From Halichondria panicea (Eukaryota > Porifera > Demospongiae > Suberitida > Halichondriidae), in the NCBI RefSeq assembly GCF_963675165.1, contig NC_087391.1, positions 5,134,646 to 5,198,645 on the forward strand: a stretch of 64,000 nt of DNA, in the 5' to 3' direction. Under the pieces are notes generated by a model. That model saw only the letters and a list, made by a program, of their open reading frames with translations, did not search any database and was not told the DNA's origin. Positions 13,301-64,000 of this stretch are shown one piece after another. Position 1 is the stretch's first letter, and every line of letters starts with the position of its first letter. The position numbers and the translations under genes are program-made.

Positions 13301-14752
13301 GATGAGGTCAGAAACAACGCCAAACCTTGCTACAGGTATGTCTCTGAGAATGCAGTGGATGGAATCACTTGTACCCAACAGTGCGTCTGGGCATCACACA
13401 CAAGATACATCTACTTTATGAATTTCGACAACCTTCACCTGGAAGGCTCGATCCAGCAAGAAAAAGATGCCTACATTGGTCAACTATCCCCCTCTCCTGA
13501 CGGTAAGACCATCTGGAGTGCCCATCTTGGAGGTACACTTCTTACCGCCTGGGATGCTCATCAAAAGTGTCACTGCTTTGACGTTGACACAAATGATCAC
13601 TTGAACGACATCTGTGAAGGCATCAATGAGAAGGACCGAATTATGACTGCAATGGTACCTGCTGACGACTGTGTGTGGGTGGGTATGGCCACAGGGCATA
13701 TACTGGTATTCAGCGAAGAAGAGCTCCTCACTTGGTTTCATCCGTACACAGAGTATGTTCGCTTCCTCACTGTACTTCCGTGCTCTGGACCATGTGAGAT
13801 GGAGCAATGTATGGTCGCCAGTGGAGGCAAAGGCTTCCAATCTATGATCGAGGATCTTGACCCACAGGCGGCGACAAGAGTGGATGATAAAGGCCAATTA
13901 CAGAACGAGGTGCCCGACAGTAAGGGAGGTTACTTGGTTCTCTTTGAAGCATTCTCCTCAAAGACATACCGACAGATGAGGTTTATTGAACAAGGCACTC
14001 CGGAGATTTTCGATAATCACCATACAGTTAGTCAAGTTATCCGACAGGGAGATTTTGTGGATGGTACTCACCTCTTGAAGATGTCCAGACCTGCAGATAT
14101 TTCATTTGCACAAGAGTCAACTGCAGAGCCTGAGATTCTCTACACCCCTGATCTGGATGCACAACCGTACCACGATACCAGCTATGATACCCATCCCAGT
14201 GAAATTGAAGAACCGAAAACCGATGCAGTATTTGGAAACACAAACGCTAGTTTTGATGTAAGCAACAGCCTCCGGAAAGGAGAGTCGAACTTCTTTGATC
14301 CCACCACTCGAAGAACTGGGTTTCCGACCAGTACAGGTACAACACCCTCCATTCCTGAAGAGGGAGTTTTTGACAGTGGCTATATCGGGCCTATCATAAA
14401 CGTGTTGTCGACACGCCAACGCACTGCTACTATTGTCAGCAGTAGCGTCTCTGGATCTACGGATGAGGTGTTTGAAGTCAAGCTACTGGATAGCCAAATA
14501 GATGACGAGCAGCCTCCGCGAAGTATTCGCATCACCTGTCCTATTCCCCCCCAGCTGAAGGTTGTCCTCAGTCAGCTGCAAGTAAATGCTTCAGTGAGCG
14601 AAGACAACTGTAAACTGCTCTACTACGGTGCAGATGGAAAAGAAGTTCGACTGAGAAGTCAAGAACAATTTGTTAGGTATCTGCAATTTGAAAGATCTTC
14701 GCAGTTATGGTTTGGAACAGTAACTGCTACTAATGTTAGGGTTGTTACATAG
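7350..14752 (+). CDS. LRRK-type ROCO kinase 2, tandem paralogue, three exons
   Basis: Exons are 7350-7794, 8865-9466 and 9593-14752, giving 2068 aa with the same intron positions and phases as the upstream gene. Order: ankyrin repeats about 20-149, helical region, LRRs about 320-480, Roc P-loop near 513, COR with a longer Pro/Ser/Glu-rich insertion (about 11250-11510), kinase about 1180-1440 with intact G-loop, V-A-I-K, F-R-D-L-K-A-D-N and D-F-G, propeller-like region, then a PB1-like end about 1975-2060 containing A-D-G-K-E-V in place of the usual PB1 acidic motif. It starts about 390 bp after the first gene in the same orientation, so it is a tandem duplicate. Some stretches are almost identical to copy 1 while others differ strongly. 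Both copies are open throughout, so both are probably functional. Confidence 0.9.
8134..8320. mobile_element. MITE with TA target duplication, in intron 1 of ROCO 2
   Basis: The 187-bp element has terminal inverted repeats reading A-G-C-G-G-G-T-A-T-A-T-T-T-C-G-A-G at the left and the complement at the right. TA sits on both sides (8132-8133 and 8321-8322). TA duplication plus short inverted termini and no ORF is the pattern of a Tc1/mariner-type non-autonomous element. Confidence 0.65.
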
Positions 14753-29345: not shown

Positions 29346-30090
29346 TGGAGACCAGGCCTCAAGACTGGAGGACGTTAGACCAGTACTCGACGATATTGTC
29401 ATTGCCAAGCTCAGACCCGGTCAGGTGAGGATCCATACGTGCATGTACATGTAGCTGGTAGTTAGTCTGCATGGTGGTTGGCTTTCAAAAACTGGTTACT
29501 GTGTGTCTGTTTTGTCACTGTGATCGACCCACCCCTATTTATTTTGTCAGTAATATTATTTTTCTCTCCTTGCAGGAGGTGGATGTTCTCTCCAGTTGGT
29601 AAGAGCTTGTACTGTGAATGTTTAGGCTTAGTATACGTCCATGTTATTAGTAAAACCAGTAGGATTAGCAGTGTGCTTGAAGGTGTTTAGAAATATTCCA
29701 CATTATTTTAAATTGCTTGTGTCAGGCCTGATTTTGATGGTATTGGTCCAACTTAATTCTACCGCAAAACTTATGCAGTATGTAAGTGTGCCGATGTGCT
29801 TTCTTGACATGCAGTTTTAAATGTACTAGTATACAGAATTTAGTCTTTCCCTATATCTGTTACAATATTATTATTACAATAGCTCAATTGTCCCTTGAGA
29901 AAATATTAGGTATGTGCATGGTATTCCCTAGACAGACATATAGACAGACAATACCTACCTAAGCCGTGGACCATATGTACGTATAGTATACAGCTGTATT
30001 AATATATATTGGCTTCCACATCCCACTAATTGGCCTTTGTCATTACTTAGTAGTTCAAATAATGACCAAGTGACAAGACAAAAAGCAACC

Positions 30091-30983
30091 ATGGAAGATT
30101 GTTTGAATTATGTTGGCGCTATTAGTTGGTGTGCAGGAGTAACCCAAGATGTGATTCCATGTCATTATAGGATACAGTGTATTGCCTTCCTTATATACCA
30201 AATGGTACCTTTATTAATTTGGAAAACATCAACATCATGGAATTTCATAGCAGTCGAGATATTTACTGCCTGCGGGGGTTTGAATATCACCCTGAAGCTT
30301 TTCAGATCTACTTTAATGCAATCGATCTTTTTGCAGTGTCTAACAATGCAGATTTTTGTGACGCTGTTGATATAGAAAACGACTCTCGGTGTGAGGACTT
30401 GTTTCTCTACTATGCATCTAGACCCCCAGTACTAATGTATGATATAAATTCGAACCTGATATATGGTACTGGTGATATTGAAAGATTGGATGAACAGTGC
30501 AAAGTTGCTTTCTTTGCAGACTACCCTATTCAAAATCCCCAATTTAATACAATTGTCAATGTTTATCACCATTTTGGTCGAACAAACCTTTCTGAGCATG
30601 GAGAGCCTGTTGCTGTGTTGTATCCAGATTTGAACCGTTTCTTTTTAATGGGAGATGTCAAAAATGCCCCAGATGGAGAGTTTCAGGGAATATTCTCTTC
30701 AGTTTTCACAAATATTTCTTGTGTGATCGAGCTTCGATACCTGCAGCTGCCAACTACAGGCCGAGGGCAAATACAATACAACTACAGAGATGTCATTAAC
30801 TACGGAGAAAATAATTGTACATTTAGCAGTACCAACATCTGCTCTTCGGTGCACACTGATCTGGTTTATGGCTATCTATCCGACGAGTACAGCCTGGTAC
30901 AGAGCACCCGCTGCTCTAACATCACTGATAACCAACTACGCCCTGTGTACAATCATTCTATCATTGTACGACTCCCTTGCTAA
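30091..30983 (+). pseudogene. Nested membrane protein, copy 2, internally deleted
   Basis: The first 35 or so codons match copy 3, then about 730 bp are missing: the sequence jumps from C-T-T-A-T-A-T to A-C-C-A-A-A-T-G-G (compare 36531 and 37268). This removes every membrane helix and changes frame. The C-terminal extracellular domain remains open (about 30180-30983, roughly 268 codons) and is nearly identical to copy 3, so the deletion is recent. Without the helices or a signal peptide it is unlikely to reach the membrane. Confidence 0.85.
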
Positions 30984-35203: not shown

Positions 35204-36422
35204 TTGTTACTAACTTTAAGTCGTCATAACTTGAGTTTTGATAGTATACCAGCACAATTAAAAATGCATTTTGTAGGCCTTTGTAATGTCTATCTAATGG
35301 TGTGTTTAAATCAGTAGAGATAGAGACAGTTCTATTCTCGGAGAAAAGCCATGGCCCAACCAAATCGTAGGAATTTGGCCTGTTTTATTACTAACTTTGT
35401 GTACAGTAAGTACTATATGAGTGTACTAAATAAGCTAATGTACAGGCATGATATGATAGTTGCAATAGCCCCTCAGTATTGTATTGACTGAGTCCCTGCA
35501 TGCATCCTCTATGTGTACAGTGTTGTCAGCTGACATCAAGTGGGTGCCCCTTGTATTTGACTGAGTACCTGCATGCATGCATCTTTTGTGTGTACAGTGT
35601 TGTCAGCTGACATGAAGTGGGTGCCCCTTGGAGACCAGGCCTCAAGACTGGAGGACGCTAGACCAGTACTCGACGATATTTCATTGCCAAGCTCAACCCG
35701 GTCAGGTGAGGATCCATACGTGTATAGTATACATGTAGCTGGTAGTTAGTCTGCATGGTGGTTGGCTTTCAAAAACTGGTTACTGTGTGTGTGTTTTGTC
35801 ACTGTGATCGACCCACCCCTATTTATTTTGTCAGTAATATTATTTTTCTCTCCTTGCAGGAGGTGGATGTGAGGCTGCTGTGTGTGAAGGGGATCGGACA
35901 AGACCACACCAAGTTCTCTCCAGTTGGTAAGAGCTTGTACTGTGAATTTTTAGGCTTAGTATACGTCCATGCATGTTATTAGTAAAACCAGTAGGATTGG
36001 CGGTGTGCTTGAAGGTGTTTAGAAATATTCCACATTATTTTAAATTGCTTGTGTCAGGCCTGATTTTGATGGTATTGGTCCAACTTAATTCTACCGCAAA
36101 ACTTATGCAGTATGTAAGTGTGCCGATGTGCTTTCTTGACATGCAGTTTTAAATGTACTAGTATACAGAATTTAGTCTTTCCCTATATCTGTTACAATAT
36201 TATTATTACAATAGCTCAATTGTCCCTTGAGAAAATATTAGGTATGTGCATGGTATTCCCTAGACAGACATATAGACAGACAATACCTACCTAAGCCGTG
36301 GACCATATGTACGTATAGTATACAGCTGTATTAATATATATTGGCTTCCACATCCCACTAATTGGCCTTTGTCATTACTTAGTAGTTCAAATAATGACCA
36401 AGTGACAAAACAAAAAGCAACC

Positions 36423-38045
36423 ATGGAAGATTGTTTGAATTATGCTGGTGCTATTAGTTGGTGTGCAGGAGTAACCCAAGATGTTATTCCATGTTCGCAT
36501 TTTAGCATACAGTTTATTGCCTTCCTTATATCGTTTGGCTTGGCTGTGTTTGACACTTGCACTGACTGGTTAGTGGTTGTCAACTTTAAGGACAATGGAT
36601 TCAGCAACCCTCTCCTACCACGAAATGATATTTGGCTAATTATATGGCTCACGTTTGCAGGAATTGGTACCTTTCTGACAGTTGTCTCTATTCTGCATGA
36701 GGGGATAAACTTGTTGTATGCATATTACAACCAGGAACCTTTCGGCGGTTGCTTTAAACGTGGCTGGAATAGTGTCACTCGAAACGAAACACTCAGTGCA
36801 CTTACACTATGGCTTCAAGAGCTTCCCATGCTTGTCCTTGGTATTCTTTTTGTTTACATGCAGCTTTCTTGCAAATCTCCAATACCAATAGATGTCAATG
36901 CCCTTTTTCTGGATATAAGTATTAGCGTGACTGTCACATTTGCAGCTATTTTTTGGAGGCTTATGCGCTCCGTTTTCCGCGTGTATGCTCGTCAAGTCTC
37001 CCTCAAGGACTACGACCAATTTTGGAAAAAAAACAAACCCAAAAGGGATGAGGTTGTTTACCCTCACGCTACGTGTGCCGGAAAGTTTTTAAAGTTGTTT
37101 TATCTCTGCATGAGTTTCGAGGCCATTGCCACGTTGGGAGCACCAATAGCTGTAGGATTCATATGGTTTGAATACGTTCGAAGTGAGAATGGAACTAATT
37201 TTGATGGCTCTCTTGCAATTTATCGTTCTGATCATCCACTCATTAATATTTCTGGGACCGTTATTCCACCAAATGGTACCTTTATTAATTTGGAAAACAT
37301 CAACGACATGAAATTACATAACAGTCGAGATATTTACTGCCTAAGGGGGTTTGAATATCACCCTGAAACTTTTCAGATCTATTTTAATGCAGTCGATCTT
37401 TTTGCAGTGTCTAACAATGCAGATTTTTGTGATGCTGTTGATATAGAAAACGACTCTCAGTGTGATGACTTGTTTCTCTACTATGCATCTAGACCCCCAG
37501 TGTATGATATGTATTTGAACCCGATATATGGTACTGGTGATATTGAAAGATTGGATGAACAGTGCAAAGTTGCTTTCTTTGACTACCCTATTCAAAATCC
37601 CCAATTTAATACAATTGTCAATGTTTATCGCCATCTTGGTCGAACAAACCTTTCTGAGCATGGAGAGCCTGTTGCTGTGTTGTATCCAGATTTGAACCGT
37701 TTCTTTTTAATGGGAGATGTCAAAAGTGCCCCAGATGGAGAGTTTCAGGGAATATTCTCCTCAGTTTTCACAAATATTTCTTGTGTGATCGAACTTCGAT
37801 ACTTGCAGCTGCCGACTACAGGCCGAGGGCAAATACAATACAACTACAGAGATGTCATTAACTACGGAGAAAATAATTGTACATTTAGCAGTACCAACAT
37901 CTGTTCCTCGGTGCACACTGATCTGGTGTATGGCTATCTATCCGACGAGTATAGCCTAGTACAGAACACCCGCTGCTCTAACGTCACTGATAACCAACTA
38001 CGTCCCGTGTACGAACCTTCTATCATTGTACGACTCCCTTGCTAG
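36423..38045 (+). CDS. Nested multi-pass membrane protein, copy 3, intronless
   Basis: An open frame of 540 aa from ATG 36423, lying between the POLR1C exon 7 and 8 remnants of unit 3. It has the same plan as copy 1: about five hydrophobic segments in the first 250 residues (including the D-T-C-T-D-W version of the helix 1 motif), then a glycosylatable Cys-containing domain ending in R-L-P-C. The first 35 residues and the loop after helix 4 (Lys-rich, with K-K-N-K-P-K-R) differ strongly from copy 1, whereas the C-terminal domain is well conserved. The frame is intact while the surrounding POLR1C exons have decayed. The start is supported by the equivalent ATG in copy 2. Confidence 0.75.
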   Translation: MEDCLNYAGAISWCAGVTQDVIPCSHFSIQFIAFLISFGLAVFDTCTDWLVVVNFKDNGFSNPLLPRNDIWLIIWLTFAGIGTFLTVVSILHEGINLLYAYYNQEPFGGCFKRGWNSVTRNETLSALTLWLQELPMLVLGILFVYMQLSCKSPIPIDVNALFLDISISVTVTFAAIFWRLMRSVFRVYARQVSLKDYDQFWKKNKPKRDEVVYPHATCAGKFLKLFYLCMSFEAIATLGAPIAVGFIWFEYVRSENGTNFDGSLAIYRSDHPLINISGTVIPPNGTFINLENINDMKLHNSRDIYCLRGFEYHPETFQIYFNAVDLFAVSNNADFCDAVDIENDSQCDDLFLYYASRPPVYDMYLNPIYGTGDIERLDEQCKVAFFDYPIQNPQFNTIVNVYRHLGRTNLSEHGEPVAVLYPDLNRFFLMGDVKSAPDGEFQGIFSSVFTNISCVIELRYLQLPTTGRGQIQYNYRDVINYGENNCTFSSTNICSSVHTDLVYGYLSDEYSLVQNTRCSNVTDNQLRPVYEPSIIVRLPC

Positions 38046-48361: not shown

Positions 48362-49540
48362 ATGAACAAGAATCGTCAGATCAGAAAACCTGGGGGAGAG
48401 TATTTGGAAGTGATAGCTGAATCCAATCAGATAGATGGAGGAAGCAAAGAACGACCACTGAGTGCTGTTAGCGATGAGTATGTGGAGATACACGATGACA
48501 TACGTTCTCATGCTAGCCTCGAACCACTCCATACCTCTCCCGGTGAAAGCTACGATGGATATCTGAAGAATCCAAAGGAGCAAGGCCACAGAGTGACAAT
48601 CCAAGACAACTGTGCCTACAATGCAACCGTACAGATAAGAGAGGAGACAGCAATTTCAGGAAGAGGGAGAGTGATACAGTCTAATAGTCTGTACGAAGAG
48701 ATCCCTGACAGAGCAGCTGTTGAGAGTGGTATTAGCCAGGCCACAGTTAGTCAGCCAAGAGTGGACGCAGAGGGTCAAAAAGAGAGCAAAAAGATCATTT
48801 CACCAGGAGAAGCACTCTGGAGTTTCTGGCAAGGCAAAGCAGAGATTGCTATCAGAATCACCAACCTAGCTGTAAGCTATACATGTATTACTTTATACGC
48901 CTTCAACTATACACACACACACACACACACACAGCTGGGGGCGGTAATTTTTCTGCTGCTATTCGCAATCATTGTAAATGCGGGCCGTATTTACGGGACC
49001 AGCCTAGGCACCGACCTGAGTGCCCGCTACACACCCACCCCTACCTTCGCCACTATTGCCAGCTGGATGCTCATGCTGACATTTGCCGGTACAACAGAAG
49101 TGTTCCTATTCATTGCTAGAGTGTACGTCACCAAGGCTACGAAATGCATTATGATTTGGGTAAGACACAACATATATACCACTACACTAAAATAAGTTTT
49201 CTTTATCTGTTTTCTTATACAGGACATTGTACACAGCGTTATTCTGTATGTTGTGTACTTGATATTGTGCTTTCAAATGATATGGTTAGCAACAGATTGG
49301 ACTATTTTGCTCCCCATACCTCAAGCAACAGCTGAGATCAATGGGGAAATAGGCCTGCTTGCTACATGCTCAGTGAGTCAATGATGTACATGTATGCACA
49401 GTTATTACTATCTACTCATGATGTAGATCTTGGGCTTCGCTTATGCCGGGTCATACATGCTCAAAGCCAGCTGGCTTATTGCATTCATACGGCAAGACTG
49501 GGAGAAGAAAATGGACGAGTACAGAGTGCAGTCACAATGA
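48362..49540 (+). CDS. Tyrosine-motif tetraspan protein A, four exons
   Basis: Exons 48362-48871, 48935-49159, 49223-49372 and 49427-49540 are all phase 0, giving 332 aa. The hydrophilic N-terminus of about 155 residues has no signal peptide and carries tyrosine motifs: E-Y-L-E-V-I, E-Y-V-E-I, D-N-C-A-Y-N and S-L-Y-E-E-I-P. A W-S-F-W-Q-G-K-A-E segment precedes four hydrophobic stretches that fall largely one per exon boundary: end of exon 1 into exon 2, later exon 2, exon 3 and exon 4. It ends with a short charged tail. Cytosolic N- and C-termini are predicted. Most diverged member of the family. Family unknown; a phosphotyrosine scaffold role is inference. Confidence 0.75.
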
Positions 49541-49744
49541 TGCAGTCATGCACAATGAAAGAACTGTTGCGTCTAGTATAATATTATACAAAATAAGAAT
49601 GTGTTAATTATTATGATGTGATCACCCATGTTGATGTTGATACATACACAGAACACATACAAGGGATTTCTTATACTTATAAAGGCAGAGCTAATGACAT
49701 TAAAATTAATCATCCCCGAGGCCCCCCACAAGCTGGCAAAATAG

Positions 49745-49750
49745 TATAAA
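49745..49750 (+). promoter_or_regulatory. TATA box of tetraspan gene B
   Basis: TATAAA lies 50 bp before the ATG, within a block (G-G-C-A-A-A-A-T-A-G-T-A-T-A-A-A) shared with gene C at the same distance. Confidence 0.45.
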
Positions 49751-49794
49751 TACTAATCAGCTATCTTACTTAGTTAGTGTGACTTACTACAGCC

Positions 49795-52027
49795 ATGGAT
49801 GCAACAGAGACCACCGCAGCAAGCACAAATGGACGACTTATAGTAGAGGAATGCGATCAAGTTGATAATCTTAAAGTTGTCAAAGAGACAGACAGACACT
49901 TAAGCGGCAGTCCTACTCCCAGTGAGCAGTCATATGTTGATTTCGACCAAGTAAATAACGAATATGTTGTCAATGATTTGGATTCGTACACCATTGAGCA
50001 AAACTGTGCCTACATGTCCAATACTGATATTAACGATCAACCGCCCGACTATCTGGAGGTCATAACAACTCAACAAAACAGCGCCTACAGTATTGAGGCC
50101 AGCAACGTCTACTGTGTGGCAGACCCTGTTGTTGCTGGACATGAGAATGGTGAGCTGTACGAAGCAATACCCGAGGAAGGAGAACTCTACGAAGTACTCC
50201 CAGAGGGAGGAGAGCGCTACGATTACGTACTACCTGTACTACCAGAGAGGAGAGAGCCTACCGGAGTAGTATCACAGAGGGGAGAGCAAAACAACGCAGT
50301 GCAAGAGAGAGAAGAGGATGCTAAGAAAAAAGTTACACCCCCAGCCCAAGGTCTTTGTAGTTTCTGGCAAGGAAGGGTGGAGGTGACTATACGAATTATC
50401 ATTCTATTGGTAAGTCCCTGTATATTATTATATAGGGAAACCAACATGCAGTGGCTGTAATAGAGGTGGCCAGCTAACACAGTTAATAATGGATACCCGG
50501 CTGTATAATTATCAAGTGCTTATAAAGAGAATATAACTTTTCTTTATAAGCCCTTGGATGCACGTGTATTTATAACACTAGCTGTATGTATACAGTGTAA
50601 TACTTATGCACCACACAGCTGGGACTGCCCCTGCTATTGCTGCCCATATCAGGAGCTGTTGGTTTGGCCAGTTTCTCAACCTCTGGCGGTATAATAACGC
50701 TGGTCACAGGAATACTATGGCCCATACCACAACTTGTGGTGAGCTGTTGTTTTGAGCTGCCTATGCTACTGGGTAGAGTCTGCTCCAAAAATATCTCCAA
50801 CTGCTTTCTAGCATGGGTGAGTTACTCCAGCTATATAATAGTAATAGCAGTTTACATTCACTTGACTATAACTACACAATGGCTGGTATGAGCTATATAT
50901 AGCAATTTCCTGTATAGTGACTTCAACTTCACACACATGCAAGTATTAATGGGACTCTACCCAGACATAATTATAAAGGCTCTCTTTAGTTGCATGGCTG
51001 CACGTTGAATTGTGACATCTCTATAAAAGTCTGGGTAGGGGAACCTATAGCTATAGCTACATAGGCATAATTATATTACATATTAAAGTGAACTGAGGCA
51101 TGCACAATACAATAGAGGCCAAATTAAAGTTTCTTGCAGTGTCTATACGCAAACAGAACAGAAACTTTAATTTGGCCTCATAGCTGCATGTACATGTAAT
51201 AATAATTCTACCCACAAACACATGCAGGACATTACACACAGCTGGGTACTGTTCTTCATCTACCTAATAGCCTGCGGGCAGGCCGCTTGGATCACTACAC
51301 TGTGGTCAGGTGATTTACACAGGGCTCAGAGCAATGATACGAATCAGAGCAATGTTGGGGGACTACAAGCAGGAGTTGCTATCTTTGTTGTTCTCACAGT
51401 AAGTACAAAACACCTCTATAATAGTGAGCATAAAGAATGCACACATGTCATGTTAATCAGTAGTGGAGTCCCTATAGCACACACAACACTGCATACGTAC
51501 ATGGCTGTAAGTATATATAATTATAGGCTAATCTTTGTTATGTATTAGCAGTACCAGCACAAGGATATGAACCTACTTATTGCTGATTGCGTTTGTGTCA
51601 TACTGTTTGCCATGTATATATATAATGAGATTCATTATTGGAATTGGAATGAGTTTATTACACAAATCATTATCTAATGGACCAATCAGATTGCTACCAT
51701 GCACTCATAAAGCAATGCAATCTAATATGGTGGTGGGTGGTGCTTCAGGTAATACCATCCAGGTATATATACATGCACGATTGATATTACTTATATATAG
51801 GCATGTATTGTACTCCTTTGACGTCTGATCACAATTATGGCAATTACATGCCGGTGATAGCCTGTACATAGTAGCTTATTTATTATAATGCTCTTGTCCC
51901 TTCTATATAGGTGCTGTACTTCATACTTGCAGTCCTGTACCTGTTCAGGGCTTGCTCGGTTATAGCAGCCATTAAGAGAAAACGTGATTACAGAAATAGA
52001 TCCATGGCACTCACTCAGAGAACTTAA
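49795..52027 (+). CDS. Tyrosine-motif tetraspan protein B, four exons
   Basis: Exons 49795-50409, 50619-50816, 51228-51398 and 51911-52027, phase 0 throughout, 366 aa. The N-terminal region of about 190 residues contains E-Q-N-C-A-Y, Q-Q-N-S-A-Y, Y-L-E-V-I, Y-E-A-I-P-E, Y-E-V-L-P-E and Y-D-Y-V-L-P. It is followed by C-S-F-W-Q-G-R-V-E-V and four predicted membrane helices; the second pair is separated by an extracellular loop with N-D-T and N-Q-S glycosylation sites. The C-terminal tail is basic (K-R-K-R). No signal peptide. Paralogous to gene C over exons and introns, showing recent duplication. Likely a plasma-membrane adaptor rather than an enzyme. Confidence 0.78.
51115..51179. repeat. Hairpin with 20-bp arms in tetraspan B intron 2
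   Basis: G-A-G-G-C-C-A-A-A-T-T-A-A-A-G and its complement surround a 25-base loop. An identical hairpin is in gene C at 53900-53964, so it predates the B/C duplication. Confidence 0.8.
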
Positions 52028-52171
52028 CATTGTAGCAATAGAACATGAGATAACCCCTATTAGGGTGCACTATATACTTTATTGCACACACACACACACA
52101 CACACACACTTAATGGTTCGCATGCACGTTAACCCAAATATGCCAATGTAAACTGGCAGCTGGCAAAATAG

Positions 52172-52177
52172 TATAAA
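52172..52177 (+). promoter_or_regulatory. TATA box of tetraspan gene C
   Basis: TATAAA 50 bp before the gene C ATG, in the same context as in gene B. Confidence 0.45.
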
Positions 52178-52931
52178 AACACTATTTTAGTCCATGAGAC
52201 CATACAAACAATACAACAGTCATGGATGCAACAGAGACTACCGCAGCAAGCGTAAATGGACAACTTATTGAAGAGGAATATGATCAAGTTGATAATTTTA
52301 AAGTTGTTAAAGAGACAGACAGACACTTAAGCGGCAGTCCTACTCCCAGTGAGCAGTCATATGTCGATTTCGACCCAGCAGATAACGAATATGTTGTCAA
52401 TGATTTGGATTCATGCAGCATCGAGCAAAACTGTGCCTACATTTCCAATACCGGCATTAATGATCAACCGCCTGACTATTTGGAGGTCATAACTCAACAA
52501 AACAGTGACTACAGTATTGAGGCCAGCAACGTCTACTGTGTGGCAGACCCTGCTGTTGCTGGACATGAAAATGGTGAGCTCTATGAAGTACTACCAGAGA
52601 TGGGAGAGCGAACCCAAATAGTACCACAGAGGAGAGAGCAAAATAACGTAGTGCAAAAAAGAGCAAAGAATACTATGAAAAAAGTTCCACCCCGAGGTCT
52701 TTGTAGTTTTTGGCAAGGAAGGGTGGAGGTGGCTATACGAATTATCATTCTAATGGTAAGTCCCTGTATATTATAGGATATAAGAGGTGGCCAGCTAACA
52801 CAGTTAATGTGGATATCCTCCTGTATCAAGGTATTATAAAGAGAAGAGGAAATGCATCTATATAGGTATATCGGTACTCAGCTAAATTTATATATATCAG
52901 AGGCAGGATATATATAATTCAGTACTTAATG

Positions 52932-53214
52932 TAGCCTCAAGACCAGCCGTTCGTTACCTGAAAGAACGCCTGGTCAAGTTCCAATATAAAACTCGTTTAG
53001 CTGAGTCAGCGAGTGGTTAGGCTTGAGTAGTTGTGAACATGATTGCGGTAACCGCAACCACAACAATACTATAGCTAGCTGCATGTTACTGGAAGCATCA
53101 TAATGATGTTCACGGGCAAGTATGGTTGTTGTGGGCAATTACCGGTCCTGGACCAATTAGACAAGTTCTACATTGGAACTTGACCAGGCATAACGAACGG
53201 CTGGTCTCGAGGCT
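52932..53214. mobile_element. hAT-like non-autonomous element in tetraspan C intron 1
   Basis: Inverted ends T-A-G-C-C-T-C-A-A-G-A-C-C-A-G-C-C-G-T-T and complement (about 50 bp of imperfect pairing). ACTTAATG is repeated on both sides (52924-52931 and 53215-53222), an 8-bp duplication typical of hAT elements. The same intron of gene B lacks it. Confidence 0.75.
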
Positions 53215-53899
53215 ACTTAATGGTTCTGCATGCATCTATAATAATTATAGCATTTTGTGTGGGCAGGAAGGTCTAAAAACAGAAACCATGCACAATAATT
53301 TTGTTGAGTTTGAGAATTAGTCTGAGTCACTGCCCTCTTCTCTTTATAAGTCCTTGGCTGCATGTACATACGTAGAGGGTGATCGCATGCACACGAGTAT
53401 TTATAACAACTAGCTGTATACAGTGTAATACTTATGCACCACCACAGTTGGGACTGCCCCTGCTATTGCTGCTATTGCTGCCCATATCAGTGCTGCCCAT
53501 ATCAGGAGCCATTGGTTTGGTCAGCTGCTTAACTTGTCTACCACAACTTATGGTGAGCTGTTGTTTTGAGCTGCCTATGCTACTGGGTAGAGTCTGCTCC
53601 AAAAATATCTCCAACTGCTTTCTAGCATGGGTGAGTTACTCCAGCTATATAATAGTATTAGCACTTCATATTCACTTGACTACACTTTTTAACTACACAA
53701 TGGCTGGTATGAGCCTGTATAGTGACTTCGACTTCACACACATGCAAGTATTAATGGGACTCTACCCAGACATATAAAGGCTCTCTTTAGTTGCATGGCT
53801 GCACGTTGAATTGTGACATCTCTATAAAAGTCTGGGTAGGGGAACCTACATAATTATATTACATGCATATAAGTGAACTGAGGCATGCACAATACAATA

Positions 53900-53964
53900 G
53901 AGGCCAAATTAAAGTTTCTTGCAGTGTCTATACGCAAACAGAACAGAAACTTTAATTTGGCCTC
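53900..53964. repeat. Hairpin with 20-bp arms in tetraspan C intron 2
   Basis: Identical to the hairpin at 51115-51179 in gene B. Confidence 0.8.
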
Positions 53965-54876
53965 ATAGCTGCATGTACATGTAATAATAATTCTACCCAC
54001 AAACACATGCAGGACATTACACACAACTGGACACTGTTCTCATCTACTTAATAGCCTGTGGGCAGGCCGCTTGGATCACTACACTGTGGTCAAGTGATTT
54101 ACACAGTGCTCAGAGCAATGATACGAATCGGAGCAATGTTGGGGTACTACAAGCAGGAGTTGCTATCTTTGCTGTTCTCACAGTAAGTACAAAACACCTC
54201 TATAATAGTGAGCATAAAGAATGCACACATGTCAAGTTAATCAGTAGTGTAGTCCCTAGCACACACAACACTGCATACGTACATGGCTGTAAGTATATAT
54301 AATTATAGGCTAATCTTTGTTATGTATTAGCAGTACCAGCACAAGGACATGAACCTACTTATTGCTGATTGCGTTTGTGTCATACTGTTTGCCATGTATA
54401 TATATAATGAGATTCATTATTGGAATTGGAATTGGAATGAGTTTATTACACAAGGACCATTATCTAATGGACCAATCAGATTGCTACCACTCATAAAGCA
54501 ATGCAACCTAATATGGTGGTGGGTGGTGGTGGGTTAGGTAATATCATCCAGGTATATATACATGCATGATTGATATTACTTATAAATTATAGGTATGTAT
54601 TGTACTCCTTTGACGTCTGATCACAATTATGAGCAATTACATGCCGGTGATAGCCTATACATAGTAGCTTATTTATTATAATGCTATTGTCCCTTCTATA
54701 TAGGTGCTGTACTTCATACTTGCAGTCCTGTACCTGTTCAGGGCTTGCTCGGTTATAGCAGCCATTAAGAGAAAACGTGATCACAGAAATGGATCCATGG
54801 CACTCACTCAGAGAACTTAACATTGTAGCAATAGAACATGAGATAACCCCTATTAGGGTGCACTATATACTTTATT

Positions 54877-55438
<562 letters not shown>

Positions 55439-55599
55439 AATGGTTCGCTGCATGCACATTAACCCAAATAATATGCCAAAGTAAACTCACAACTCTTAGA
55501 AGTGGGTGACTTTAATTAGCACCATTCAACCAGTGCCGTGTAGGATAAGTACATTCAAATATGGCGGAACCTATTACACACATCATCGGACACAACATA

Positions 55600-55825
55600 C
55601 CGTATAGCGCGAAATTTTCGAGGGGCTTAATTTTCGTGGATTTCGTGGGTTAGCAATCCTACACGAAAATTAAGTCCACGAAAATCGTTCTTTACCTGCT
55701 ATAACGTGCAAGATTTAAAGGCGTGGCTTCCGGTAAGCAGTCATTCCGCGAACATTGTGCAACGAAATGGCTTTTAGAGGCCAATCCACGAAATATAAGT
55801 GCCTCGAAAATTTCGCGCTATACGG
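55600..55825. mobile_element. MITE family A, copy 2 (TA target), upstream of tetraspan D
   Basis: 226 bp, nearly identical to 32899-33126, with TA flanks. The paralogous upstream region of gene F (about 61266) shows the same flanks joined with a single TA, i.e. the empty site. Confidence 0.92.
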
Positions 55826-55931
55826 TATATAGGATGTACAATAAGGGTTTTTTTTCGAGCAGTCATACACGTAATAGGTCACCACATTTACTAGCAAGCA
55901 CACAAGTTCATGCTTCTCATAGAGAGAAGCC

Positions 55932-57630
55932 ATGGAGATAGTTAACAACTGTTCTGACGGTGTCAACACACAAAGACAGATCAGTGAAACAGGCAGAGAG
56001 AGTGAGATTGTTGAAGATGTTGCTTCAGAAACAAATGTTGACGTCCAAGAAAATCCTGCATACAATTTCAGAGCTAACAATGCGAGTGTTGAGTGTGGGG
56101 ATGGGGGAGAGTACGAAGTGGCTATGTACGGTTTCACCAATATCCCAATCGAGCAAAATCCTGCCTACAAAGTGCACAGTACCGGACGGTTGGATGAGGT
56201 CAGTGACAGTGGTCAGTACGAATTAGTCATCCCTACGGAGTCAGCTACAAATGTGATTGTCCAACAAAACCAGGCTTACAACATAATTACTACACAGCCA
56301 GCAACTGATTGTAATTATGAGGAGATCCCAGAAAATACAACCGAGCAATTTTATGAAGAGATTCCTGTGCAACAAAACCATTTGACACAAGTCCCTGGGA
56401 AAGTAGCGACACCTGTTCCGCTATTGAAGGCTACCTGTAGCTTCTGGCAAGACAAAGCGAAAGTGGCTGTCAGAATAACTATCTTAATGGTAAGATTGCG
56501 ACAGCATATTTTAAAGCATGCCTAATATATAGGCTATAATAATCATAGGAAAATGCAACCAAGAGCATTCAGTAGATTTTAGGGAGCTCTATAGAATTTA
56601 TAAGACCGCACATACACAGTTAGTAGAACACAAACACACACACACTCCACCGCTGCAGCTCGTATCTCTACTGTTGGCACTATTCATTTCATCTGATGGT
56701 CTGGTTTTCACAGCTACAGTAATTGAGTATTCTTCATTGCCACCTCTAACACTAATCATAGGGACAATTTTTCTAACCCTTTTGCTTCTTGGAGTCATCA
56801 TGGAAATAGCACACCTCTACATCAGGACATGCAGGAGAAGAACAACCAAATGTTTCCTCGCGTGGGTACGTATAGGATGATTGGTCGGTACATAATGTCG
56901 GTACATTATATGCATGCAGTACATAGATTTACCAAAGAAAGATAATAATTATGTATATGCATGCACTGTATTCCATCACACACCATACGTCATAATAGCT
57001 ATTACACTGCTTATGCAAACTCTATACACCAACACACACCACACACACAGGACATTATATACTCTTGCGTAACGATCTTCTCCTCACTGGTGTTCCTCGG
57101 AGCATCCATTGGGCTAACTGTACTATGGTCTACAATCAATCATCTGGTGGAGGGATACATCTTTTTGATCATAATCACGGCAAGTTAATCAACGAGAGCC
57201 TTTTATATACAGGCCTCATAATAATTATGTATATATAATTATATGCACTGTATTCCATCATAAATATCATTTCCTATAAGCATGCAAATAATTATTGTAC
57301 ATTAATTAGCTCACTCCTGATTCAAACTTCATACACACACACACATGCACAGCTGGCTAGGACACATTAATAATCAATTATAGCTTTCTGGTATTACACA
57401 TTAATAATCAAGCTATATATACACAGTAAAAACACATAATAATGTTATATGGGATGCATCATCGTATTTTAGTGTTAAAATGACAGAAATTCGAATCTGT
57501 TTTTACTGTGTAGCTTTCTGGTATTACACATCATTTATGATTCCTATATATGCAGGTGCTGTGCTTCACACTTGCAGTCCTGTACCTGTTCAGGGCTTGC
57601 TGGATTATAGCGATCATTAAGATCAAATGA
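55932..57630 (+). CDS. Tyrosine-motif tetraspan protein D, four exons
   Basis: Exons 55932-56489, 56659-56865, 57051-57179 and 57556-57630, phase 0, 322 aa. The N-terminus of about 175 residues has a regular series Q-E-N-P-A-Y-N-F, Q-N-P-A-Y-K-V, Q-Y-E-L-V-I-P, Q-Q-N-Q-A-Y-N-I, Y-E-E-I-P-E and F-Y-E-E-I-P. Then C-S-F-W-Q-D-K-A-K-V-A and four predicted helices. A cluster of basic residues (R-R-R-T-T-K) follows helix 2. NPAY fits the PTB-domain NPxY consensus and YEEI is the classical Src-family SH2 ligand. Intron 3 begins with GC (A-C-G|G-C-A-A-G-T), an acceptable GC-AG intron; gene E has GT there. No enzyme domain is present. Confidence 0.78.
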
Positions 57631-57760
57631 GATCAAAGAAATGGACCCCCCCCCCCCAGAACTTAACATTGTAGCAATAACACTACCTTCTTGAACACAT
57701 GCACACACTTCACACACTTAATTAATGGTTCTATGCACATTGACACAATTATGTAAGCTA

Positions 57761-57962
57761 CCATATATTTATGCTTGTGAAAAACTTTTACGAATCAGCC
57801 AAATTAGCAGAAAATGTTGACCCTCTGCGATCTAACTATTGCGTTCTGGCAAGGATCGTGTGTACTAATTTAGGTTTTTCAATTTTATTTTTGCGAATGG
57901 ATAAACCCTCGCAAAGTTCGCATAATTATGTTTGATGCTCGCAAAACATTCTAGTAATACGG
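57761..57962. mobile_element. MITE family B, copy 2
   Basis: The right end is C-A-A-A-A-C-A-T-T-C-T-A-G-T-A-A-T-A-C-G-G, as in copy 1; the left end is diverged (C-C-A-T-A-T-A-T-T-T). TA flanks are present. Confidence 0.75.
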
Positions 57963-58494
57963 TAATATCTCCTGATGCAATGTAAGCTCAAAGAAGTGGG
58001 TGGTTGTGTCTAGGCAACTTTATATAATAGTTGTATAATCAGGTGAAACCTATATCATGTTTTACACATTATTTTTACCAAATATAGAGGAACTTATACT
58101 ATACACATGCACCAGTTGCAGGTGCTCCTGATTACACATCCTATACTTGTACCATGATGTGCTCTGACACTAAGGAATATCCATTGAAACTCTCAGGATA
58201 CTCCAGGGTACAAATCCCATGTACCCTACTATAGGGTGTACATTCATATACCCTAGGGTACATTGGCTTGTTTGTGGTGAGCCTAAAGCCCACCATCCAC
58301 CCTTAAAGGGCTCTCTCTTTTATACAAAACTACTGTGAAACACTTGATCAAATTGTGAGAATCAATTGTTCAGTATCCACAATAAAACTACCCGACCCCA
58401 TTGGAACTGAGGTGTGAAGTTGTAAATGTGGTTTGTAAAGTGCAAGCACAGCACATAAAATGTGCACAGTGCGCATGCACGGCAGAGATCAAAG

Positions 58495-58918
58495 CAGAGG
58501 AGGTCGGACATCACTTGAACTTTCACTAATTATGACCTTTTAATGACATTCCAGGCCAAATTGCTTTTCGTTTTTGCTGACTCAGCGTAGCGTCTACTGT
58601 ACTTCGCTAGTCTCTATTTTAGCCGCCCTCTAAAAGTTGGGCGGCCTACTCACGAGTCTATGTTATAGAGGGCGACTGATTCATGAGACAATATTCTGCA
58701 CGGTTTCTGTCGCTGAATCTATTGACAGCTAGTTGTGTTTGGTGTCTGTGATGGTTACTGGACCTAACCCTATCAGCACATAATACCTATACTAGCTAGA
58801 TCCGCCTAGATCTAGCCATGTTCTACTGCTGAGTCAGCAAAAACAAAAAGCAATTTGGCCTGGAATGTCATTAAAAGGTCATAATTAGTGAAAGTTCAAG
58901 TGATGTCCACCTCCTCTG
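58495..58918. mobile_element. Mutator-like non-autonomous element with about 92-bp terminal inverted repeats
   Basis: Ends C-A-G-A-G-G-A-G-G-T and complement extend into about 92 bp of near-perfect inverted repeat, with an interior of about 240 bp. AGATCAAAG is repeated on both sides (58486-58494 and 58919-58927). A 9-bp duplication with long inverted ends is typical of Mutator-like elements. No ORF. Confidence 0.8.
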
Positions 58919-59036
58919 AGATCAAAGAGTGTTTACTACTACTCAGTTGTAAATGGGTTGGATAACAGCTTCTAATCAATATGTGTTCATAGCACAAGCT
59001 ACCTGTACCATGCATATCTGTGTGTGTATTGTTATT

Positions 59037-59102
59037 GTACTACCTCGAGCAGTTCTATGTATCCCTCGGCCGGGGAATACATAGAACTGCCCTCGGTAGT
59101 AC
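59037..59102. repeat. 66-bp near-perfect hairpin
   Basis: Arms G-T-A-C-T-A-C-C plus A-G-T-T-C-T-A-T-G-T-A-T and their complements meet at C-G-G-C-C-G. Confidence 0.85.
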
Positions 59103-59413
59103 AAATCCAATACATCCTTGATATCCATGGTACAACTATTACATGTCATATAACAATGAAGGGTGTTTCGCTCCCATCAGATTCAGTATTGCACTCCTGG
59201 TCTAACCTGTTAGCTCACTATAATTACACTGAATCTGATTAGTAAAGTACCCTTCATTGTTTTATGACATGCAGGATGTGTGTAACCAGGAGACCTGCTG
59301 GTGTAGTATAAATTCCCAGAAATTGGTTAGTGCAGAATGTGTGGTTCAATGGTTGTGTGGTGTTGGGAATACTCCTGCATGATTAGACTCACAGAGACAA
59401 GCTAAACTAAGCC

Positions 59414-61099
59414 ATGGAGTTAGTTAACAACTGTTCCTACGATGTCAACACACAAAGACAGATCAGTGAAACAGGCAGAGAGAGTGAGATTGTTGAACAT
59501 GCTGATACAGAAACAAATGTTGACGTCCAAGAAAATCCTGCATACAATTTCAGAGCTAACAATGCGAGTGTTGAGTGTGGGGATGGAGAAGAGTACGAAG
59601 TGGCTGTGTACGACACAAATATCCCAATTGAGCCAAACCACGCCTACAATGTGCACAGCACCGGACAGTCGGATGAGGTCAGCGAGTACGAATTAGTTAT
59701 CCCAGTAGAGCCACTTCCGAGTTTGATTTCTCAACAAAACCATGCTTATAACATCGATATTACAGAGCCAGATGACACTGCATCTGTTGGTAGCTACGAG
59801 GAGATCTCAGAAAATACGAGATGGGTTTCAAAAAATGCGACTGAGCGATATTATGAAGAGATTCCTGCACAACAAAACTATCTGACACAATACCCTACTG
59901 AAGAAGAAGCAACTGTTCCACCATTGAAGGCTATCTGTAGCTTCTGGCAGGGAAAAGTAGAAGTGGCTGTCAGAATAACTATCCTAGTGGTAAGACAACT
60001 GTAGAACATAATTATTATGCCATTATTTACACGACAAAGGAAAACCCACAAAGACCATACACCATGCATGCACACACTTCTACCAATGCAGCTGGCAATT
60101 CTACTGATGGTGCTATACATTGCATCAGCTGGTCTGGCAATCATCCCAATTACTGGTCGGTTTTCATCGGCTCCTCTCACAACACTGATTATAGGAGGAA
60201 TTTTCCCATTCCAATTTGCTTGTGTAATTATCATGGAAATAATACACCTCTGCATCAGGACACGCAGGAAAAGGACAAGCAAATGTTTCCTCACATGGGT
60301 AAGGTACAGGCTATACGGTTACAGCGTATACATACAGCAAACAAACTATATATCTCTATTCATTGAGTGACTGACTATATACATCTGCGCATGTACATAC
60401 ATTGAAATAGCTATTATTGATACCCTCATCACATCACACTCTTATTGGGTGTACAATGTTCCAAAGTGAAGGCTTCGGGTAGCTTTGGAAAGCACATAAT
60501 CATGTGTGCTGTAGGGTAAATAAAAAAAAGTTGGCCAGTTTTGGGTATAGCTTCGCGAATTAAGTTCAGGAAGGCTTTCTTGAAATGTGAAACCAAAAAA
60601 AGCCTTAACCTTGTGATGTCAAACAAGTGTTCATTAACTTCGCAAATTTTGTTTGCCAACCTACCATAACACACACACACACACAGGACATTTTATACTG
60701 TTTCATGACAAGCTTCTTCTCACTGGTGTTCCTCGGAATATCAGCCTGGCTAACTGTAGAGTGGTCTATAACGAGTAATCCAGTAGAATATTTCCTCTTC
60801 ATTCTAATCACAGTAAGTTAATAACCTTACCTCCAGTTCCTACACAAAACTACTATTATTATAACATAACATCTTCTTCTAGCTTGGAAATAACTAATTT
60901 GCTAATGATTCAAACCTCACGTATTGTAGGCACATGCATGCACTCACACATTCAAGACAATCTTTTTGCTATCACACAATAAATGGCTGTAATTCCTACA
61001 CAGGTGCTGTGCTTCATCTTCATGGCTCTGTACATGCTCAGGGTTTGCTGGATTAGGGCAACCATTAGTATGAAGTGGGATTCAAGAATGGAAATATAA
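59414..61099 (+). CDS. Tyrosine-motif tetraspan protein E, four exons
   Basis: Exons 59414-59989, 60092-60298, 60687-60812 and 61004-61099, phase 0, 334 aa. The N-terminus carries Q-E-N-P-A-Y-N-F, P-N-H-A-Y-N-V, Y-E-L-V-I-P, Q-N-H-A-Y-N-I, Y-E-E-I-S-E and Y-Y-E-E-I-P. Next come C-S-F-W-Q-G-K-V-E-V-A and four predicted helices with a basic loop (R-T-R-R-K-R-T-S-K) after helix 2. Closest to D in both exon lengths and sequence; the tail is longer by seven residues. No disruption is seen. Confidence 0.78.
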
Positions 61100-61365
61100 A
61101 CCAAGGAAAATGAAAAGTAGTAAACAGCCTAGATTCGTAGCAATTACAATTTAACGCACACACACGTTGCACTATACTTTATTGCACACACACACTGTAT
61201 CTAACACCATTCAACTAGGATAAGCTAGTACATTCAAATATGGCGGACCTATTACACACATCATTTGACACAACATATAGGATGTACATGCAATAAGGGT
61301 TTTTTTCAAAGGTCACCACATTTACTAGCAAGCACACAAGTTCATGCTTCTCATAGAGAGAAGCC
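61100..61365. other. Spacer before tetraspan F, paralogous to the region before D
   Basis: Shares the same blocks as 55530-55931 (including A-T-A-T-G-G-C-G-G and A-G-G-A-T-G-T-A-C) but without the MITE, so it is the empty-site allele of that insertion. Confidence 0.75.
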
Positions 61366-61887
61366 ATGGAGATAGTTAACAACTGTTCCTACGGTGTCAA
61401 CACACAAAGACAGATCAGTGGAACAGGCAGAGAGAGTGAGATTGTCAACAATCTCAGAGCTAGTGTTGACCGTGGGGATGAAGGAAAGTACGAAAATGTT
61501 GTGTACAACTTCACTATCGATCGAGCCAAACCACACCTACAATGTGCACAGTACCCGACAGTCGGATGAGATCAGTGAAAGTGGTCAGTACGAATTAGTT
61601 ATCCCTACGGAGTCAGCTGCAAATGTGATTGTCCAACAAAACCAGGCTTACAACATCATTACTACACAGCCAGCAACTGATTGTAATTATGAGGAGATCC
61701 CAGAAAATATACAACCAAGCAATTTTATGAAGAGATTCCTGTGCAAAAAAACCATTTGACACAAGTCCCTGGGGAAGTAACAACACAAGCCCCTAAGAAA
61801 GTAACGACATCTGCTCTACCATTGAAGGCTATCTGTAGCTTCTGGCAAGGCAAAGCGGAAGTGGCTGTCAGAATAACTATTCTAATG
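61366..61887 (+). pseudogene. Tyrosine-motif tetraspan F, exon 1 only, frameshifted
   Basis: Starts like D (M-E-I-V-N-N-C-S) but the frame shifts near 61520 and again near 61710, where two extra bases follow A-A-T-A. The exon still ends in C-S-F-W-Q-G-K-A-E-V-A and a GTGAGA donor. Exons 2-4 are missing: directly after the donor comes a fragment of a family B MITE, then sequence matching that which follows the MITE downstream of gene D. A deletion between the exon 1 donor and the MITE explains this. Confidence 0.85.
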
Positions 61888-62912
61888 GTGAGATTTAGGT
61901 TTTGCGATTTTATTTTTCCTTGTAAAGTTCGCATAATCATATTCGATGCTCGCAAAACATTCTAGTAAAACAGTTGATGCAATGTATATATAGGCTCAAA
62001 GAGGTGGGTGGTTGTGTCTATAATAGGCAAATTTATATAATAGTTGTATAATTAGTGGAAACCTATATTATATCATGCAAAAACAATAATTATTGGGGAA
62101 CTTATATACTACATGCATGCACCAGGTGCTCCTGATTACACATCCTATAATTATATGTCATATATTTTCTGTTACACTTGCGTATTATATCGCACACAAA
62201 GGCCCGTTTTCATCTATACACGTACTATACTAGTTACTTTGCTTACACGCATCAGCATGATTGAATCCAATTAAGATAATTAAGTAAATCATTGCAAGCT
62301 TGCGTGCACACGAACAAAAAATGATTGTTTTGCCTGCGTGCAACACAATCAAAACAAACACAGAGTACTACACAATTTGGCCTGTACTGTAGGAGGTGGG
62401 TGGTTTTTAACAAGATTGCTGGCATGCATGGTAAGATATCTTAAGATTGGAACCTAGTACCGTATATCAAGTTTCGAATGCATAACGTTCTTCAAATTCA
62501 ATCGGAAAAAAGACGCAAAGAGTGAGCATGCACATGCAATTCGAAACGCAATCAGATTTGTACAGTGTCACTTGCATTCGAAACCCGATACATTACTAGG
62601 ATGTTTTGCGAGCATCAAATACATGCGAACCTTGATCAATTCGCAGCAATAAAATCGCAAAACCTACTAGTAAATACACACAATCTTTGCCAGAACACAA
62701 TAGTTAAATTGCAAAGGGCTGCTGATTTGGCTCATTCTCAAAGGTTTTTCACAAGCAAAATATTCTAGTAATACGATATACGGTATACATATCATCTAAA
62801 ACAACAAATACTTGACGTGCCAATATAGGGGAGTTATTTAACTCCCACTTGCAGAGCAGTCAGTCATAGCCACATTTACTAGTATAAACACACAGACTTA
62901 TAGAGACAAGCC
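61888..62912. other. Spacer between tetraspan F and G
   Basis: No exon is seen. It holds a family B MITE fragment (about 61893-61975), a stretch paralogous to 57963-58150, and an inverted family B copy at about 62591-62778. Confidence 0.6.
62591..62778. mobile_element. MITE family B, inverted copy
   Basis: Reverse-oriented relative to 41076-41293, with G-T-T-T-T-G-C-G-A-G-C-A-T-C near the left end. The termini are degraded; ends are approximate. Confidence 0.65.
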
Positions 62913-64000
62913 ATGGAGATAGTTAACAACTATTCTGACGGTGTCGGTACACAAAGACAGATCAGTGAAACAAGCAGAGAGAGTGAGATTGCTGAAGATG
63001 CTGTTACAGAAACAAATGTTGACATCCAAGAAAATCCTGCATACAATTTCAGAGCTAACGTTGAGAGTGTTGACTATGAGAATGGAGAAGAGTACGAAAA
63101 TGTTGTGTACAACTTTACAAATATCCCAATCGAGCCAAACCCTGCCTACAAGGTGCACAGCAACAGGCGGTTGGACGAAGTTAGTGAGTACGAATTAATC
63201 ATTCTTACAGAGTCACCTGCAAATGAGATTGTCCAACAAAACCAGGCTAATAACATTATTACTACACAGCAAGGTGATACTGCATCTGATTATAGCTATG
63301 AGGAGATCCCAGAAATTTCGACTGAGCAATTTTACCCAGAGCAACAAAACCCTTTGACACAAGCCCCTGAGGAAGTAACGACACAAGCCCCTGAGGAAGT
63401 AACGACACAAGCCCCTGAGGAAGTAATAACGACACAAGCCCCTGTAACGACACCTGTTTCGCCATTAAAGGCTATCTGTAGCTTCTGGCAAGGCAAAGTG
63501 GAAATAGCTGTCAGAATAACTATCTTAATGGTGAGATAATTGCACTGGTTTTAGAACATGCATGCCTACAACCAACCTATAGGACTACTGAAGTGCTAAA
63601 CCCTTGGCAGTTTTATGTCTTACAACCAGAGTGTTCTACAAAATTAATTATGTATAAGTAACTAACATGCAGAGGGCAAATATACATATACACTATACAA
63701 AAGACACTGAATCAGATTTGAATGCTATGACAAGGCTTTGAAACTGCATGCAGTGGTGCATGTCTGGCTAACATCAAAATTAAACTATAATAACTTGTTG
63801 TGTATAGATTGAGGCTATTCATGCTGTAAACGCAATGGCAGCCAGGTGAGCATGACTCAGAATCACACACAGACCAGGTGACTATACTATAACCAATGGC
63901 CACCGATGCGCCTCGGGTTAAAAAGAGGAATATTCAGTATTTTCTAGGGAGCTCTAGAATTCATAATTATGATAGCTATTATTATTATGATGTATCTATC
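62913..64000 (+). CDS. Tyrosine-motif tetraspan protein G, partial (exon 1 at 62913-63530)
   Basis: Exon 1 encodes 206 aa and ends at a GTGAGA donor in phase 0; exons 2-4 are not visible before the window ends. It carries Q-E-N-P-A-Y-N-F, P-N-P-A-Y-K-V, Y-E-L-I-I, Q-N-Q-A-N-N (here the tyrosine is replaced by Asn) and Y-E-E-I-P-E. A young 24-bp repeat encoding A-P-E-E-V-T-T-Q occurs three to four times near 63360-63445. It then has C-S-F-W-Q-G-K-V-E-I-A. Either it continues past 64000 or it lost exons 2-4 as F did. Confidence 0.65.
63580..63920. mobile_element. Partial copy of the intron 7 foldback element
   Basis: The left part (A-C-T-G-A-A-G-T-G-C-T-A-A) and the block G-C-T-G-T-A-A-A-C-G-C-A near 63823 match the element at 21492-22515, and the right end C-C-T-C-G-G-G-T-T-A also matches. 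The interior is diverged. It lies in intron 1 of tetraspan G. Confidence 0.55.

Follow-up and report, generated by a model that had tools for sequence, protein, structure and literature searches.

The end of a 64,000-nucleotide stretch of the genome of the demosponge Halichondria panicea (contig NC_087391.1, positions 5,134,646 to 5,198,645 of the forward strand; the whole stretch is referred to as the window) holds a tandem gene family for putative four-helix membrane proteins with an acidic, tyrosine-rich N-terminal tail. The genome comprises 131 Mb in 39 contigs, and in the contig numbering used here the window corresponds to C15:5134646-5198645. Seven exon-1 copies, A to G, follow each other in tandem, and their exons are listed below by window position unless a contig is given.

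48362..48871, plus strand: A exon 1, tail of 153 residues and start of helix 1, from ATG to donor gtaagc, phase 0; NCAY, YEEIP
48935-49159, 49223-49372, 49427-49540 with stop, plus strand: A exons 2-4, membrane body; AG acceptors, GT donors, phase 0
49795..50409, plus strand: B exon 1, tail with NCAY, NSAY, YLEVI, YEAIP, YEVLP
50619-50816, 51228-51398, 51911-52027 with stop, plus strand: B exons 2-4
52222..52755, plus strand: C exon 1, open
53448-53630, 54013-54182, 54704-54820, plus strand: C exons 2-4, exon 3 frameshifted by 1 base
55932..56489, plus strand: D exon 1, tail with NPAY, NPAY, NQAY, YELV, YEEIP, YEEIP
56659-56865, 57051-57179, 57556-57630 with stop, plus strand: D exons 2-4, intron 3 begins with GC
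59414..59989, plus strand: E exon 1, tail with NPAY, NHAY, NHAY, YELV, YEEI, YEEIP
60092-60298, 60687-60812, 61004-61099 with stop, plus strand: E exons 2-4
61366..61887, plus strand: F exon-1 pseudogene, reading frame broken, no recognisable exons 2-4 before G
62913..63530, plus strand: G exon 1
C15:5198988-5199197, 5199931-5200056, 5200341-5200436, outside the window: G exons 2-4

Organization of the gene cluster

The sequence-only reading of this DNA had proposed at least seven tandem members of one design. All seven exon-1 copies were found, and four members (A, B, D and E) have all their exons inside the window; C, however, is frameshifted, F is broken, and exons 2-4 of G sit 0.3-1.8 kb past the window end. 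C is probably a pseudogene or contains a sequence error, and F is an exon-1 pseudogene. Downstream of the window the same contig carries the members H, I and J on the plus strand and K and L on the minus strand, so that the whole cluster comprises 12 copies, ten of which (A, B, D, E, G, H, I, J, K and L) have open frames in all four exons.

These ten intact members share one design of four exons with all junctions in phase 0. Their introns are of the GT-AG type except for intron 3 in D, G, H, I, J and K, which is GC-AG and begins with a gcaagt donor at the same place in each of them (window position 57180 in D). An isolated exon-1-like fragment lies downstream on the same contig, and a spare E-type exon 4, located 0.1 kb past the last exon of J, may be left over from a lost copy or serve as an alternative exon. 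Six-frame searches of the genome with exon 1 of G and full-length A as queries gave, among the matches listed, none away from the cluster, these searches being insensitive to very distant relatives.

Predicted protein architecture

In the intact members the N-terminal tail comprises 148-189 residues ahead of S/R-x-W-Q, close to the 155-205 residues claimed before, and carries a net charge of -7 to -29. The segment S-F-W-Q-(G/D)-(K/R), described earlier as invariant, abuts the membrane in all seven window copies, whereas K and L outside the window read RTWQ. Directly before S/R-x-W-Q stands a cysteine in nine of the ten members (W in A), which by analogy could be acylated as in LAT. Hydropathy analysis of A, B, D, E, G and H yielded 5-10 overlapping hydrophobic windows that form four regions by eye, and the body probably consists of four helices. 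As to the proposed distribution of four helices over phase-0 exons, exons 2-4 are in phase 0 throughout the intact members, while the four regions were seen in these six of the ten. Because a basic loop lies between hydrophobic regions 2 and 3 of the ten-member alignment, and in view of the motif content, the N-terminal tail is predicted to be cytosolic.

Tyrosine motifs of the tails

The tails alternate N-x-A-Y with Y-E-x-I/L/V, and the claim of a tyrosine-rich tail was borne out. The ten intact members contain 23 N-x-A-Y sites (one to three per tail) and 25 Y-E-x-[ILV] sites (one to four per tail, at least two in eight members and a single one in A and I); SH2-ligand-like tyrosine motifs, a trait of transmembrane phosphotyrosine adaptors, are present on all ten tails. 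The initial identification of the two motifs as NPxY and YEEI applies to part of the sites, as 9/23 N-x-A-Y sites are NPAY and 10/25 Y-E-x-[ILV] sites are YEEI, while the rest deviate. NPAY had been assigned to D, E, F and G; it occurs in D, E and G, whereas none of F's frames contains it, and A and B are without it.

Chance occurrence was assessed by residue shuffles of the tails of A, B, D and E. N-x-A-Y lies above the shuffles in all four (p = 0.02 for A, 0.001 for B, 0/5000 for D and E), and Y-E-x-[ILV] does so in B, D and E. Furthermore, every intact member has at least one N-x-A-Y followed 13-25 residues on by Y-[EDLVK]-x-[ILVM]. The N-x-A-Y sites inspected show Q or E at position -5 and a hydrophobic residue at -6, a context that suits IRS-like rather than Shc-like PTB ligands. 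A is the most diverged member of the family, its tail being 20-26% identical to those of B, D and H; the alignment of all ten members retains Q81, N83, A85 and Y111 (A numbering) as invariant. The D-type tails seem to have grown by duplication, because internal repeats are found in D and E (p ≤ 0.005), are below significance in B (p = 0.09) and are absent in A. In B, a 30-bp tandem repeat at 50158-50222 spans the YExxPE motifs.

The motif pair on receptor-like genes

An exact genome-wide search for the YEEIP DNA pattern gave 60 sites, versus 8 for the reversed control. Nine of these sites lie in the cluster and 51 outside it, 33 of the latter on contig C4, where 24 form two arrays, one at about 1.10-1.14 Mb and the other at about 1.54-1.67 Mb. 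Among the outside sites 25 of the 51 were read, and in 14 of these 25 N-x-A-Y stands in the same short open frame as YEEIP; L063 and L077 have similar tails in which the exact N-x-A-Y is missing. Since L060 and L061 represent two further types beside the one seen at the other 12 supporting sites, the independent tail types number three.

At L059 two Sushi repeats (Pfam, expectation values E of 2.4e-12 and 2.5e-8) lie on the strand of the tail exon and upstream of it, and between them and the tail follow a cysteine-rich stretch, which has no Pfam match, and then a hydrophobic stretch. L058 resembles L059 by eye. Judged by the predicted layout of L059, the pair of YEEIP and N-x-A-Y occurs on another membrane architecture, which is receptor-like.

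The receptor-like arrays on C4, C5 and C10 resemble the tetraspans in carrying YEEIP and N-x-A-Y on their tails at similar spacing: two of the three receptor-like tails compared have YEEIP followed by N-x-A-Y at a distance of 21 and 23 residues, versus 20 residues from YELVIP to N-x-A-Y in D, E, H and J. They differ in having one hydrophobic stretch (by eye), a tail that follows the helix on an exon of its own and, in L059, the Sushi repeats. The C10 tail (L060) aligns to the tails of D, E and H above shuffles (p = 0.002-0.006).

The arrays at C4:1100000-1145000, C4:1539000-1668000 and C10:1311000-1335000 (L058-L061, L068-L074) show YETVP, YEEIP and Q-N-x-A-Y, some of the tails ending in IYDN; the C10 array, of which one of five sites was read, has a different ectodomain and tail. 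A DNA pattern for QNxAYN gave 103 matches versus 17 for its control and was left unused, many of the matches on C2 and C14, among the places listed, having a stop at the third codon.

Candidate readers

Profile searches of the genome gave 71 SH2 and nine PTB matches, counted per exon piece and some with internal stops. An SH2-kinase frame (L038) has Src as its best PDB matches (E = 7.8e-160). On the strength of these matches the genome has candidate readers, namely a Src-type SH2-kinase as well as SH2 and PTB domains.

Constraint and recombination

Among the eight D-type members, the proportion of nonsynonymous relative to synonymous differences (pN/pS) is 0.11 at the tyrosine columns versus 0.69 at the other tail columns (permutation p = 0.05); for the motif columns the permutation p is 0.018. 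Y is kept in all eight members in five of the nine tyrosine columns. Taken together, these values weakly support selection on the tail tyrosines. Positive selection on the loops was considered as well and rejected, pN/pS of the first extracellular loop (0.84) being unremarkable beside that of helix 2 (1.07) and helix 3 (0.88).

Identity between D and J is 86-94% over the earlier part of exon 1 and rises to 99-100% from late exon 1 to almost the end of the gene. Furthermore, L is nearest to H and J in exon 1 and nearest to K and G in the body. This step in identity and the mixed affinities of L indicate that tails and bodies are being recombined and that gene conversion is active.

Relationship to known families

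Pfam gave nothing significant for the ten intact members (best E = 0.07) or for partial proteins (best E = 0.058), and a profile of the family found no matching chain in the PDB (best E = 0.23). At the level of sequence profiles, the earlier statement that the proteins resemble no family that could be named thus holds. The best matches did not stand up to inspection: DUF7775 (E = 0.07) was obtained for A only, is absent in the other members and has no match in this genome, and was dropped, while Presenilin and similar matches of the partial proteins (E = 0.058) and two PDB profile matches, which lie on tail residues, were taken as chance. CD20 (PF04103), tetraspanin (PF00335), MARVEL (PF01284) and SCAMP do not appear in the list of Pfam matches of the ten members at E up to 10, a range in which the HMMER filters discard most matches above about 0.1. 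Because neither Pfam nor the PDB gave a significant match, kinship with CD20, MARVEL, SCAMP or tetraspanin is unsupported at sequence level. The CCG motif of the large second extracellular loop of tetraspanins is absent in all ten members. Within this genome, the MARVEL profile gave weak matches on C13, C14 and C17, and the CD20 profile a single weak match (E = 0.03), rejected on finding no recognisable CD20-like protein at its locus by eye. A viral origin was dismissed, relatives being absent from the viral contigs searched. A literature search found no description of such a family, although papers outside its reach might have one.

Other features of the window and genome

Two tandem LRRK-like genes occupy 385-6958 and 7341-14752 of the window, both with LRR, Roc, COR, kinase and an LRRK2-type beta-propeller; ankyrin repeats stand ahead of these domains, in the second gene by Pfam and in the first by eye. 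A tandem family of multi-helix proteins is located at 23072-24670, 29944-30983 and 36276-38045, and the two copies scanned (23078-24667 and 36276-38042) gave no Pfam match. Between C and D lies a perfect (CA) repeat of about 280 units (54878-55436). An 81-nt inverted repeat at 58506-58586 and 58828-58908, with arms that are 99% complementary and 241 nt apart, resembles a small mobile element. Elsewhere, the genome has Wnt matches, which mark it as that of an animal, Wnt not being known outside animals, whereas a troponin search gave no match anywhere and is uninformative. Four cathepsin-like stretches were read, none of them silicatein-like by eye; the one compared with the PDB came out as cathepsin L.

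Discussion

The tandem four-helix family with its acidic N-terminal tail is a candidate tyrosine-phosphorylated docking platform, a reading to which we give about an even chance of being correct. A membrane Src-family kinase would phosphorylate the Y-E-x-I/L/V sites of the tail, and the phosphorylated sites would hold SH2 proteins, the kinase itself first, while the N-x-A-Y sites would bind PTB-domain adaptors. With the two kinds of site alternating, one tail could hold both SH2 and PTB readers. Because a similar motif pair stands on the tails of this sponge's tandem receptor-like genes, the tetraspans would most likely belong to the pathway of those genes, where they could serve as signal-amplifying partner, adaptor or competitor. 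The recurrence of the motif pair on these tails is also the strongest support for the phosphotyrosine scaffold of the sequence-only reading; the motif deviations speak against it, and its scaffold role is one that we infer.

A number of observations weigh against a docking platform of this kind. Concerning the motifs, 14/23 N-x-A-Y sites are without proline and hence are not NPxY, YEEI makes up only 10/25 Y-E-x-[ILV] sites, A's count of the latter motif does not exceed the shuffles (p = 0.12), the internal tail repeat fails in A and B, and the tail motifs also fit endocytic signals. Concerning constraint, a higher conservation of the tail than of the body was not found, as the mean ratio of nonsynonymous to synonymous substitution rates (Ka/Ks or dN/dS) of the eight D-type members is nearly equal for tail (0.59) and body (0.66) and indicates loose constraint on both. 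Of the earlier claim that selection acts on the motifs, the lower pN/pS at the tyrosine columns stands, but its significance is marginal (p = 0.05, or 0.07 when the comparison is with two-fold-codon residues), the serine and leucine columns have equally low values, Y is not kept in every column, and one N-x-A-Y has N for Y in G and K. Concerning the receptor-like genes, 9/25 sites read are without such a tail (L062, L064, L066, L067, L076, L078, L080, L081 and L082), and 12/14 supporting sites (L058, L059, L065, L068-L075 and L079) belong, as near-copies, to a single tail type located on C4 and C5. Furthermore, Sushi repeats were found by Pfam at L059 only, the one L058 stretch scanned, which was read through introns, giving none, and 12/15 comparisons between receptor and tetraspan tails have p > 0.08, the three significant ones all involving C10.

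Known membrane proteins offer partial parallels. The leukocyte transmembrane adaptors LAT, NTAL, PAG, SIT and LIME have one helix and a C-terminal tail with many SH2-ligand tyrosine motifs; the tetraspans share with them a membrane-anchored multi-tyrosine tail and the membrane-side cysteine (nine of ten), but differ in their four-helix body, N-terminal tail and N-x-A-Y sites. MS4A proteins have four helices, a cytosolic N-terminus and a tandem gene cluster, as is predicted from sequence for the topology here, and FcepsilonRI beta (MS4A2) has a tail tyrosine motif as well. The immunoreceptor tyrosine-based activation motif (ITAM) of MS4A2 is, however, C-terminal, whereas the tetraspan tail is N-terminal, long and built of N-x-A-Y and Y-E-x-I/L/V, and the ten members gave no CD20-family sequence match. 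MS4A2 is reported to amplify the signal of its partner receptor together with Lyn (PMC11663944). By analogy, should the tetraspans work in this way at all, a transmembrane adaptor or FcepsilonRI beta is the plausible model, which does not imply membership in either group.

As a tentative and less probable extension, one bidentate tail code, YEEIP plus Q-N-x-A-Y, might be a common plug on both a Sushi-receptor repertoire and the tetraspans. The latter would then be multivalent adaptors or amplifiers, an independent counterpart of the Fc-receptor/FcepsilonRI-beta pair or of LAT, and gene conversion would have exchanged their tails and bodies.

Among the alternatives, a rather doubtful one takes the motifs as trafficking signals without phosphorylation, Y-x-x-hydrophobic for clathrin adaptor mu and N-x-x-Y for PTB domains of the ARH/Dab2 type, on a sorted tetraspan of vesicles or junctions. 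YENV, YELV and YEEI do fit Y-x-x-hydrophobic as well, with 3-5 such sites per tail in the ten members, and SCAMPs likewise join a cytosolic tail of repeated short motifs to a four-helix body; SCAMP and MARVEL proteins would also share the long cytosolic N-terminus and short C-terminus. SCAMP tails, however, repeat NPF, the docking motif for EH domains, which is found in 0/10 tails here, and Pfam matches neither family. Moreover, none of the four tails compared with shuffles (A, B, D and E) has an excess of Y-x-x-hydrophobic as such (p = 0.05-0.41), unlike the excess of Y-E-x-[ILV] seen in B, D and E, and sorting signals need neither an acidic E at +1 nor a repeated YEEIP core.

We also consider it unlikely that this is merely a fast-evolving tandem family without conserved signalling role, in which recent duplication, together with gene conversion and short repeats, accounts for the likeness of the motifs, and their recurrence at other loci goes back to coincidence or to an old sharing of exons. 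The dN/dS of about 0.6 in body and tail would suit such a family, as would the active gene conversion seen in the D/J identity step, the 30-bp tandem repeat carrying B's YExxP motifs and the broken copies (2/12). Yet the motif pair is kept in A despite the low identity of its tail to B, D and H, and YEEIP exceeds its control by 60 to 8, with N-x-A-Y present too at 14/25 outside sites read.

Remote descent from a described four-helix family (MS4A/CD20, MARVEL, SCAMP or tetraspanin), with the sequence signal lost, is quite improbable: four helices with a cytosolic N-terminus would be common to such families and MS4A2 is described as an ITAM-bearing signal amplifier (PMC11663944), but none of them appeared among the Pfam matches listed (under the filters mentioned) or in the PDB profile search, CCG is missing throughout, the one CD20-profile match of the genome is weak and not CD20-like by eye, and MS4A is reported to be limited to jawed vertebrates (PMC2826416).

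If the reading as a tyrosine-phosphorylated docking platform is true, Halichondria panicea would provide a concrete and testable case of phosphotyrosine docking from an early animal lineage, with defined tails, candidate readers and receptor-like arrays of similar code. Such a system would bear on the origin of receptor-adaptor signalling of the immunoreceptor type and on the spread of short tyrosine codes over unrelated membrane proteins, and the four-helix body without recognised relative would add a membrane protein family.

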